From Desulfuromonas sp. SDB (GTDB taxonomy: Bacteria > SDB-A), in the NCBI GenBank assembly GCA_001412365.1, contig LKUE01000418.1:1-6098 (forward strand): 6,098 nucleotides of DNA. The letters run 5' to 3'. How positions within the stretch are numbered: position 1 is the first letter of the stretch; each line of letters starts with the position of its first letter. The notes beneath the pieces are model-generated. The model was not told the DNA's origin and made no database searches. It was given only the letters and a program-made list of their open reading frames with translations. Shown here one piece after another: positions 170-4,023 of this stretch. The position numbers were made by a program, and so were the translations under genes.

Positions 170-206
170 TAGATTTTAAAACAGGAGACAGTATTAGAAA
201 TCTAAT
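168..206 (+). promoter_or_regulatory. Nine-base inverted repeat flanking the ribosome site and start
   Basis: ATTAGATTT (168-176) and AAATCTAAT (198-206) are perfect reverse complements. They enclose a 21-base loop that contains the AGGAG and the ATT start. The right arm can also pair locally: ATTAG (193-197) with CTAAT (202-206) over a four-base loop. The left arm overlaps the candidate -10 box, so the dyad could be a DNA operator. It could act as an RNA hairpin only if transcription starts further upstream. The arms contain just one G-C pair, so an RNA stem would be weak. Confidence 0.4.
183..195 (+). promoter_or_regulatory. Ribosome binding site AGGAG with ATT as probable start codon
   Basis: AGGAG (183-187) is followed after five bases by ATT (193-195), which is in frame with the cyclase gene. 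No ATG, GTG or TTG occurs in frame between the upstream stop TAA (166-168) and the GTG at 232, and that GTG has no purine-rich site before it. This ribosome site therefore points to initiation at ATT, a rare but known bacterial start codon (infC is the classic case). A G-to-T sequencing error in an original ATG would give the same picture. Confidence 0.6.
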
Positions 207-231
207 CCCGAAGTTAATTGCCGATAAATGG
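193..231 (+). other. Probable N-terminal extension of the cyclase (13 codons)
   Basis: This is an open reading frame in phase with the GTG at 232. It reads (I/M)RNLIPKLIADKW and continues into VNNQFSGEF. Many class III cyclases of the tandem-cyclase type have a short Leu/Pro-rich helix of this sort (a pattern like LxPxLI) directly before the first catalytic strand; soluble adenylyl cyclase has a similar LPDLIV segment. The match suggests that the protein starts here and is 1,276 residues long, not 1,263. The similarity is judged by eye. Confidence 0.6.
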
Positions 232-3200
232 GTGAATAATCAGTTCAGTGGGGAATTTAGCAGCGGGTCCATGTTTGTGGATATCTCCGGATTTACCGCT
301 TTAACCAGGGAGATGATGACCAAGGGCAAGGAAGGCGCTGAATTGATTGCCCAGATTATCAATGAAGTTTTCACCGGGGCAATTCAGGTAATTTATCAAA
401 ATAACTGCTATATCACCACTTTCGGGGGAGATGCATTCAACGCCCTGACCAACTGCTCCCCAAATAAATTTCAAGACCTGGAGAACCTGTTAACTGCAGC
501 CTGTCAAATCAACCGGATCTTCAAGGAAAAACCTCAAGTAGAAAATAAATTCGGCACTTTTCCCCTGTCCGTGAAAATTGGATTATCTTATGGAAAGGTG
601 GAGTGGGGAATAATAAAAAGTAAACAACTAAGTTCTTATTACTTCAAAGGACCAGCTATAGACAGATGTGCAGGTGCGGAGAAAAAATGCTGTTCCCAGG
701 AAATCATATTCGACCAGCATTTTCTGAATAATATCAAAGACAATACAAAAATTGAATACAACCATATATCCGGACAATATTATAAGCTAACCGATTTTAA
801 TCTTCCCCAAAGAGTGCCTGAATTTTCCTATCCGGATATTAATTTAGATATTCAGCAAAATTTCTATCCGTCAAAGTTAATAACTACCAAATTAAGAGGT
901 GAATTCAGGGGAGTTATCAGCTGCTTTATCTCCTTCCTGGATCAGCCGGGTGCAGACCTGTCAATTTCCCGGATTATGGATGAAACCATAAAATATGGAG
1001 GATACTTCAACCGGATTAGTTTCGGAGATAAAGGCGGTTTTCTGCTGGTTTTCTTCGGAGCACCGGTGAGTAGAGAAAACCTGTTCAAACGGGCTGCAGA
1101 TTTTACCCTTTCCATTATGAGGATTAAAGATGCAAAATTGCGAGTTGGAATGACTTATGGAACTGCCTTTACCGGTTTCACCGGCAATGATCACCGGGCT
1201 GAGTACACCGCTCAGGGACAAAAGGTTAACCTGGCCGCCAGATTTATGACTTCTGCTGAATTTCAAGAAATATTAACCGATAATTCAATATATGAAAAAT
1301 TACAGGAAAGCTATGAATTTAAAATAAAACCGTCCAAAAAATTTAAAGGTTATAATCAACCTCTGCCTTTCTACCAGCTGATAAAACCCAAGTCAAAGAC
1401 TATAGATGAACAGCCTGAAGTCAGTTTAGTGGGAAGATTAGATGAAATAAAAAAAATAAATCAAGTAATTGACGGTCCCGGTCAGAAGAGATTTGCCGGT
1501 ATAATCTACGTAGATGGAGAACCGGGTATAGGAAAATCCCGGCTTATCAATGAGGTAAAAATTACCCATCCCCGGGATAAGTTAACTTGGATGAAATTCC
1601 CCTGTGATGAAATTTTAAGAACCAGTTTAAATTCCATTTACACCTTTATTAAAAATTACTTTGAAATATCAGATCAATCCGATCAACAGACTATTCTAGA
1701 TAAATTTGAAGCCAAGATTAATAATCTGACCAGTTCTATTGACGATCAGGAGATATCCCAGGAAATTCAAAGAACTAAACCGATTCTGGCCAGGTTAGCC
1801 GGGATTGATTATCCTCTGGGAATCTTCGCTGATCTGGATGCTAAAGCTATCTATGAAAACACCCTTCATGCTCTTAAAAATTTAATTAAAGCGGAATGTC
1901 TTTTAAAACCGGTAGTCATTGAAATTGAAGATGCCCACTGGATTGATGGTGAATCGGAAAATTTCTTCAGCTTACTTTCCAGGAATATTGGAAATTACCC
2001 TTTAACCATCCTAGCCAGTTGCCGGTTTCTGGATGACGGCAGTCAATATCATCTAAATCTGGACAGCGGTGAACAGATGAGAATTGAATTAAACCGTTTA
2101 GACATGGAAAGTTCCAGACAGATGATTTTAGACATCTATAACACTTCATCAGTGCCTGAAAATACCCTGGGAGAGATTTTCACCAGAAGCGAAGGAAACC
2201 CTTTTTATCTGGAACAAATATCCCTGTATTTAAAAGAGCACAAATTACTGGATCAAAAATTCAATTTAAAATCCACTGATTTTGAACTTCCTTCGGACAT
2301 CAACTCTATCATCATATCCAGAATTGACCGTTTGACCCAGCAGTTACAGGAAGTGGTTAAAACTGCATCCGTGCTGGGAAGAGAATTTGCAGTGAAAGTC
2401 CTGGCTGAAATGCTAAATTTACAACCGTTGGAACCTTATCTGGATGACGGAGAAAAGCAGTTGATCTGGTCTCATATTACCGAACTGCGTTATATATTCA
2501 AGCATGCCCTGATCAGAGAAAGCGTATATCAGATGCAGTTGAAAGACCGTTTGAGAAATCTTCACCAATTAGCTGCTCAAACAATTGAACAGGTTTTTCC
2601 GGATTCACTGGATTCTCATTATGCCGAGTTAGCTCAGCATTATCAAAAAGCGGAAGATACTGAAAATGCAGTTAAATACCTTAAAAAGGCAGCTAGATTT
2701 GCTCATGAAAATTACAAGCTGGATGAAGAAAAAAAGATGTATATTGACCTTCTTAAATACTCACTATCTATGGAGGACGAAATACTCATAAGCCAGGAGT
2801 TAGGATTCAATTATCGATTATCTGGAAATTTAAAGGATGCTGAAGCATATTTTTCCAGAGCATTAAAAATTGCTGAACAGCATGATATGGATTATAAAAT
2901 TGCTGATTTATTAATTGACCTAGCTTCAGTGTATAATAGTACTGCGGATTTCGATAAATCTATAAAATATTTAGACAATGCTCATAAAATTAGTGAAAAG
3001 ATAAATGATAAAAAAATAATTGCAAAGATTCTTAAAAATAAAGGTTTATACTACCATTTTCAAAATAATGACCATAAGGCATTGGAATGTTTCCAGCAAG
3101 CGTTGAATATTTATACTGATCTTGAAATGGTCAGCAGCAGGGCAAATTGCCTTGCAGATATTGGTATTTTTTGTGGATATATAATTGGTTTGGATAAAGT

Positions 3201-4023
3201 GTTGGGATTATTACATGAATCCTTAGAGATTTATAAACAGGAAAGAGATCTGATTGGACAAAGTAGGAGTTACTCTAATATCGGCTTGACCTATAAGGAA
3301 GTGTACTTAGATCAAGCAAAATCACTGGAATACTATTTGAAATCAATTGAAATTGATAAAAAAATCGGAAATATCAAATCTCAAATGGTCACTATGAATA
3401 ATGTTGGAGGATTATATATGGAGAAAAAGGAATATAAAACTGCTAAAGCTTATTTTGAAAAATCCTTAGCGATGACCAAAGAAGTTGGCAATTATATTCA
3501 CATGATAAATCCATTGGCTAATTTATCCTCTTACTACCATGCTATGGGAAAATTAGATTTGGCATATGATTACATTGATCAAGCATTAGATATTATCGAA
3601 CGAAAAAATTTTTATTGGTCTTATCAGGATTTTCTAAAACAAAAGATTGAAATTTTGATTGATTCAGATAAATTGGAAGAAGCTGAACAGGTAAATCAAA
3701 AATTATATAAATTCAATCAGCAAAAACATCCTGAAGATTTAGACTATTTTAACATATTACTTACTGCAAAAATTAAAAGTAAGACTAATCCCAATCAATC
3801 CGAAGAACTGTTGAAATCATTGTTGATTAATGAGCTACCAATTCTGCAAGAATCAGATGTTAATTACCAACTCTGGAAAATCACCGGTAAGAAAGAATAT
3901 CGTCTTGCTGCGCTTAACCTTTATCATAAAGTATGTAATGAAGTCATTGACGATTATAAGGACTACAGTCATTACGAAAGATACCAGGAATTAAAAAACT
4001 ACCAGTCAGTTGACCAGGGGTAG
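232..4023 (+). CDS. Tandem class III nucleotidyl cyclase - AAA/STAND ATPase - TPR protein (soluble adenylyl cyclase-like)
   Basis: Probably makes a cyclic nucleotide (cAMP most likely) in the cytosol; no signal peptide or membrane segment is visible. Numbered from the GTG at 232, cyclase domain 1 (about 8-160) has FVDISGFT with D17 and FGGDAF with D67, the two metal-binding aspartates. Domain 2 (about 225-385) has the DKG motif (266-268), EYT (324-326) and VNLAAR with N333 and R337, but no metal aspartates. The ATPase follows (about 396-780): Walker A GEPGIGKS (429-436), Walker B-like VVIEIEDAHW (561-570), and EGNPFYLEQ (654-662). About seven 40-residue TPRs fill about 795-1120, then a helical tail. 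Order and length class match ADCY10-type proteins, though this one is shorter than the human enzyme. The GTG is the first canonical start; real translation probably begins at 193. Base composition becomes much more AT-rich after about 2640. A guanylyl cyclase or an inactive cyclase cannot be excluded. The family call is firm; substrate is inferred. Confidence 0.93.
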   Translation: MNNQFSGEFSSGSMFVDISGFTALTREMMTKGKEGAELIAQIINEVFTGAIQVIYQNNCYITTFGGDAFNALTNCSPNKFQDLENLLTAACQINRIFKEKPQVENKFGTFPLSVKIGLSYGKVEWGIIKSKQLSSYYFKGPAIDRCAGAEKKCCSQEIIFDQHFLNNIKDNTKIEYNHISGQYYKLTDFNLPQRVPEFSYPDINLDIQQNFYPSKLITTKLRGEFRGVISCFISFLDQPGADLSISRIMDETIKYGGYFNRISFGDKGGFLLVFFGAPVSRENLFKRAADFTLSIMRIKDAKLRVGMTYGTAFTGFTGNDHRAEYTAQGQKVNLAARFMTSAEFQEILTDNSIYEKLQESYEFKIKPSKKFKGYNQPLPFYQLIKPKSKTIDEQPEVSLVGRLDEIKKINQVIDGPGQKRFAGIIYVDGEPGIGKSRLINEVKITHPRDKLTWMKFPCDEILRTSLNSIYTFIKNYFEISDQSDQQTILDKFEAKINNLTSSIDDQEISQEIQRTKPILARLAGIDYPLGIFADLDAKAIYENTLHALKNLIKAECLLKPVVIEIEDAHWIDGESENFFSLLSRNIGNYPLTILASCRFLDDGSQYHLNLDSGEQMRIELNRLDMESSRQMILDIYNTSSVPENTLGEIFTRSEGNPFYLEQISLYLKEHKLLDQKFNLKSTDFELPSDINSIIISRIDRLTQQLQEVVKTASVLGREFAVKVLAEMLNLQPLEPYLDDGEKQLIWSHITELRYIFKHALIRESVYQMQLKDRLRNLHQLAAQTIEQVFPDSLDSHYAELAQHYQKAEDTENAVKYLKKAARFAHENYKLDEEKKMYIDLLKYSLSMEDEILISQELGFNYRLSGNLKDAEAYFSRALKIAEQHDMDYKIADLLIDLASVYNSTADFDKSIKYLDNAHKISEKINDKKIIAKILKNKGLYYHFQNNDHKALECFQQALNIYTDLEMVSSRANCLADIGIFCGYIIGLDKVLGLLHESLEIYKQERDLIGQSRSYSNIGLTYKEVYLDQAKSLEYYLKSIEIDKKIGNIKSQMVTMNNVGGLYMEKKEYKTAKAYFEKSLAMTKEVGNYIHMINPLANLSSYYHAMGKLDLAYDYIDQALDIIERKNFYWSYQDFLKQKIEILIDSDKLEEAEQVNQKLYKFNQQKHPEDLDYFNILLTAKIKSKTNPNQSEELLKSLLINELPILQESDVNYQLWKITGKKEYRLAALNLYHKVCNEVIDDYKDYSHYERYQELKNYQSVDQG

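Follow-up and report, generated by a model that had tools for sequence, protein, structure and literature searches.

Initiation factor IF3 discriminates against AUU-type codons and autoregulates infC, its own gene, by this route. The start codon of infC is AUU, AUA or AUC; to our knowledge, AUU-started genes other than infC and pcnB are seldom documented. In E. coli, the AUU start of pcnB, which encodes poly(A) polymerase I, keeps expression low (Binns and Masters 2002, as related in PMC13009471). In S. aureus, cvfC1 starts at AUU and ccpN at AUA, and AUU/AUA starts with extended Shine-Dalgarno (SD) sequences reach about 10% of the output of AUG in poor medium (PMC13009471). Reporters of Listeria rsbW follow the order ATG > ATA > ATT, with the output of ATT being the lowest yet detectable (PMC13068326).

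The window, i.e., the whole stretch of DNA analysed here, is a complete contig of 6098 bases (C418 of source genome G000) that carries a class III cyclase gene. According to the best-supported reading of its sequence, translation of this gene most probably initiates, with low output, at an ATT codon at position 193. The source genome is a 3.14-Mb draft in 433 contigs, and it belongs to a bacterium from the family of a 'candidate division WOR-3' MAG. It was compared with three genomes of the same family (G001, G002 and G003), giving four genomes of the phylum in total; the cyclase locus on contig C23 of G002 is also found in JAFGIG010000030.1, assigned to 'candidate division WOR-3 bacterium Zod_Metabat.185'. 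The window contains two genes, the cyclase on the + strand, ending at 4023, and a TPR histidine kinase on the - strand (5757-4006), and both of these long ORFs are intact. The two genes are convergent and their coding ends share 18 bases (4006-4023). Rfam gave no match and ARAGORN no tRNA in the window. The features of the cyclase gene are the following:

141-169, + strand: candidate sigma-70-type promoter, with TTGCAC at 141-146 as a weak -35 element, a 17-nt spacer and TATAAT at 164-169
183-187, + strand: SD-like AGGAG, 5 nt upstream of ATT 193, with a probability of chance occurrence of 0.4-1.5%
193-4023, + strand: sAC-like class III cyclase of 1276 codons, from the putative start ATT to TAG at 4021-4023
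193-195, + strand: ATT, the putative initiation codon, indicated by homologue alignment, an SD at optimal spacing and the lack of a canonical alternative before the conserved motif
196-231, + strand: lead-in RNLIPKLIADKW, corresponding to the conserved family N-terminus and lost with a start at GTG 232
232-234, + strand: GTG, the first canonical start in this frame, not taken as the real one because it has no SD and no homologue starts there
271-624, + strand: first cyclase domain (Pfam, aa 27-144), aligned to ADCY10
994-1380, + strand: second cyclase domain, with aa 268-396 aligned to ADCY10 328-462

The cyclase resembles infC in that a strong SD lies a short distance before a non-canonical AUN codon. 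However, the product of infC autoregulates its own gene, whereas the cyclase would be without such a direct loop, and the cyclase ATT is not common to its paralogues. Like pcnB, the cyclase is a non-ribosomal gene with an apparent AUU start; it differs in gene and lineage, and the start was shown experimentally for pcnB but is deduced for the cyclase. Initiation at AUN codons and reduced output also link the cyclase, as predicted here, to cvfC1 and ccpN of S. aureus and to the ATA/ATT mutants of Listeria rsbW. The evidence for these starts comes from ribosome profiling and/or reporters, and the rsbW cases arose under laboratory selection. The cyclase would add to the small class of AUU-started genes formed by infC and pcnB.

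The domain order of the encoded enzyme comprises tandem cyclase domains, an AAA ATPase and TPRs (Pfam Guanylate_cyc, AAA_16 and TPR_12), an arrangement in common with human ADCY10 (sAC) and the bacterial CyaB-type cyclases. Both cyclase domains match human ADCY10 in PDB sequences (4clf, 4oya) with E about 1e-20. The first cyclase domain retains both metal-binding Asp motifs (FVDISGFT and GGDAF), and the Asn/Arg motif of the second, QGQKVNLAARFM (QKVNLAAR), aligns with GQKVNLAARMM of ADCY10. In contrast to ADCY10, the window cyclase is bacterial and belongs to a large paralogous family. On these grounds, the gene is predicted to encode a full-length sAC-like class III cyclase, a paralogue in a large cyclase-cyclase-AAA-TPR family. 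This family is greatly expanded in G000-G003: each of these 2-3 Mb genomes gives 22-28 matches, a remarkable load of second-messenger enzymes for draft genomes this small.

The start region of the gene reads ...TTTTAAAACAGGAGACAGTATTAGAAATCTAATCCCG... and contains, as the initial annotation had pointed out, AGGAG 5 nt before the in-frame ATT 193, the spacer being ACAGT (188-192). The same annotation had noted that GTG 232 is the first canonical start and is without a ribosome site, and indeed no SD precedes this codon; the cyclase ORF as listed from GTG 232 has 1263 codons. The frame is open from 169, following an in-frame stop at 166, and the in-frame codons between 169 and 229 include no ATG, GTG or TTG. 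Furthermore, none of the frames contains an ATG between 90 and 227, and a one-base indel error would therefore uncover none.

The position of the start was assessed with 132 homologues, 15 from the source genome, 38 from the three same-family genomes and 79 from other bacteria. This set consists of 53 loci of the four genomes, read at their 5' ends, to which 80 from named genomes of several phyla were added, with one duplicate removed; a single-sequence query of genome_contigs matched no relatives, and an alignment query matched these 80. In [KR]NL[IV]PxFI, the motif conserved as the N-terminus of the family, the conserved Pro served as anchor. This motif is encoded in the window by the 13 codons before GTG 232, where it reads NLIPKLI, in agreement with the earlier view of these codons as a conserved class III cyclase lead-in. 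P6 and I9 of the lead-in are invariant in the alignment, and GTG 232 lies 8 codons downstream of the invariant Pro.

A canonical start before the motif Pro is present in all 132 homologues, with the window gene being the sole exception. The initial annotation had proposed to align homologues and see whether ATG stands at the position of the ATT; this is the case in 86 of the 132, and 102 have a canonical start exactly there when TTG (11) and GTG (5) are included. Of the other 30, 27 carry their canonical start no more than nine codons upstream or four codons downstream from the ATT position, and three carry it 25-37 codons upstream. A first canonical start at the position of GTG 232, which had been named as a finding that would speak against the ATT, occurs in none of the 132. 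The conserved lead-in and the homologue starts upstream of the Pro indicate that the lead-in is translated, that the start lies at or just before codon 196, and that GTG 232 is not the start. ATT 193 emerges as the sole candidate that combines the right position with an SD. Since gene callers propose no AUU starts, an annotated protein would miss the conserved first 13 residues of this cyclase.

The closest match to the window cyclase among the relatives is 39% identical, and no close orthologue suitable for testing the conservation of the ATT was found in the four phylum genomes or genome_contigs. The ATT start is specific to the window paralogue, the only one of about 25 in the source genome in which it is seen. 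Another paralogue of this genome (L049, G000:C318) has ATA at the aligned start position and an in-frame ATG eight codons upstream. The three homologues whose nearest canonical start lies 25-37 codons upstream are L211 and L253 of Bacterium UASB270 and L185 of a Neomarinimicrobiota; their aligned codons are ATC, GTC and AGA, and they may have either an N-terminal extension or further non-canonical starts.

To estimate how often such an SD arises by chance, strong SD-like words were defined as AGGAG, GGAGG or GAGGT within 13-14 nt before a position. They precede ~0.4% of random positions in shuffled upstream DNA of the window and 1.2-1.5% in genome backgrounds. In a 302-kb sample of the source genome, they precede 19% of the 5'-most ATG starts, which shows that the organism does use SDs; the partial 16S of this genome ends at model position 902, short of the anti-SD tail. 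Within the cyclase family (source genome and relatives), members with ATG exactly at the start position have a strong SD in 0/27 and a 4-nt SD in 1/27 cases, versus a 4-nt SD in 4/10 members with TTG or GTG (Fisher p = 0.014, window gene excluded). Counted for TTG alone, SDs are present before 4/8 starts, with nearly none before ATG. A possible explanation is that the SDs before the TTG starts compensate for weak start codons. The crude 302-kb sample revealed no genome-wide rule of more SDs at weak start codons, and the association within the family, which rests on small numbers, is therefore a lead only.

Non-canonical starts also appear in other genes of this lineage. infC of the source genome lacks a canonical start upstream of the IF3 N-terminal domain; its start region is AAGGAGG-GAATA-ATT-AAA (L112, about 1456-1461), with ATT 5 nt after GGAGG; possibly, the ATA one codon before this ATT is used instead. 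infC of G002 (L133) reads GGAGG-TAGCT-ATT, and that of G001 (L134) has a non-canonical ATT or ATC. In this lineage, infC is thus predicted to use a GGAGG and a non-canonical AUN start, which is also the case in other bacteria. Together with the homologue starts, the GGAGG-5 nt-ATT arrangement in the same genome supports the original proposal that the cyclase is initiated at its ATT.

A scan of 84 genes for non-canonical starts flagged further loci, of which only mreC held up; the remaining ones were attributed to antisense ORFs or to frames that extend locally beyond an ATG close by. In none of the four genomes does a canonical start precede the conserved N-terminus of mreC (L255-L258, from G000, G003, G002 and G001, respectively; also L162, reverse complement from 18904). 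In all four, the gene opens instead at a conserved ATA, which shares bases with the stop codon of mreB (ATAG). An in-frame stop one codon before this ATA in G001 and G002 leaves no other upstream AUN codon, and the conserved ATA is likely the mreC start, with initiation possibly occurring by termination-reinitiation. No account of non-canonical mreC starts turned up in a literature search. As the lack of canonical starts in infC and mreC is conserved across genomes, these cases cannot be isolated miscalls. A predicted weak start on a second-messenger enzyme, in a genome where neither infC nor mreC has a canonical start, offers a concrete test of expression being set by weak starts in uncultured phyla.

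Initiation at ATT 193 would imply that the start codon was changed to ATT where relatives carry ATG, TTG or GTG. The strong SD AGGAG, 5 nt from the ATT, would position the 30S subunit, and the initiator tRNA would pair imperfectly with AUU. The product would be M-RNLIPKLIADKW..., made at low yield, and its output would depend on the stringency of IF3. IF3-dependent regulation of the cyclase is plausible.

A base-call, assembly or strain-mixture error at 193-195 would instead hide a canonical codon, most likely ATG via a substitution at 195; among the alternatives to an ATT start, such a substitution error is the strongest. ATT is one substitution away from ATG, the genome is a draft in 433 contigs, and no orthologue in the four phylum genomes or genome_contigs confirms the ATT. 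Such an error is nevertheless unlikely, considering that both long ORFs of the contig are unbroken and that the lineage has other genuine non-canonical starts, which are conserved across genomes. Moreover, the window gene has a strong SD, like infC, but the ATG-started relatives do not; if its ATT were a miscalled ATG, one would expect no such SD, an argument which, owing to the small numbers and to the lack of the same trend in the genome-wide sample, lowers the probability of an error without eliminating it. Initiation at GTG 232, leaving the 13 upstream codons untranslated, would make use of the first canonical in-frame start, but is very improbable for a codon that has no SD, that serves as a start in 0/132 homologues and that follows codons for the conserved N-terminus of the family. 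It is hardly conceivable that a canonical start in another frame is joined via a frameshift or indel error, because ATG is missing from all frames between 90 and 227, and TTG 98, TTG 141 and TTG 218 open ORFs of only 9, 4 and 5 codons.

A different question is whether the ATT has a selected function. The start codon could have mutated recently, and the ATT would then be a real but weak start in an early pseudogene or a neutral variant without regulatory role; this opposes a selected function and not the ATT as start. The restriction of the ATT to one of about 25 paralogues fits such a history, and redundancy among these paralogues would relax selection. The 1276-codon frame and the catalytic motifs are intact, however, and a strong SD has been retained at good spacing; a recent mutation of this kind is quite possible, though less likely than not. 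If only the window paralogue is affected, the ATT is a small, ordinary piece of evolution. At the other extreme, AUN starts could have a common role in this bacterial family, keeping the output of a set of genes (infC, mreC and one or more cyclase paralogues) low and sensitive to IF3; second-messenger signalling and cell-shape genes would then be coupled to translation capacity via the level of IF3, a speculative scheme that is improbable as a whole.

Inverted repeats surround the ATT: ATTAG-AAAT-CTAAT at 193-206, and TTAGATTT with AAATCTAA within 170-205. Folding of the corresponding hairpins, AUUAG/CUAAU (193-206) and UUAGAUUU (170-177) with AAAUCUAA (198-205), is no better than that of shuffles (z = 0.23, -0.21 and 0.65), and a structural switch at the start is therefore not claimed. 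The sequence at 141-169 is suggestive of a sigma-70-type promoter and can also be read in another register, TGCACA-16-TATAAT, with a 10/12 match; three promoter matches were observed versus 1.7 expected in shuffles, which is little above chance. From this candidate promoter, transcription would start near 176, and about 17 nt of leader, including the SD, would precede the ATT.
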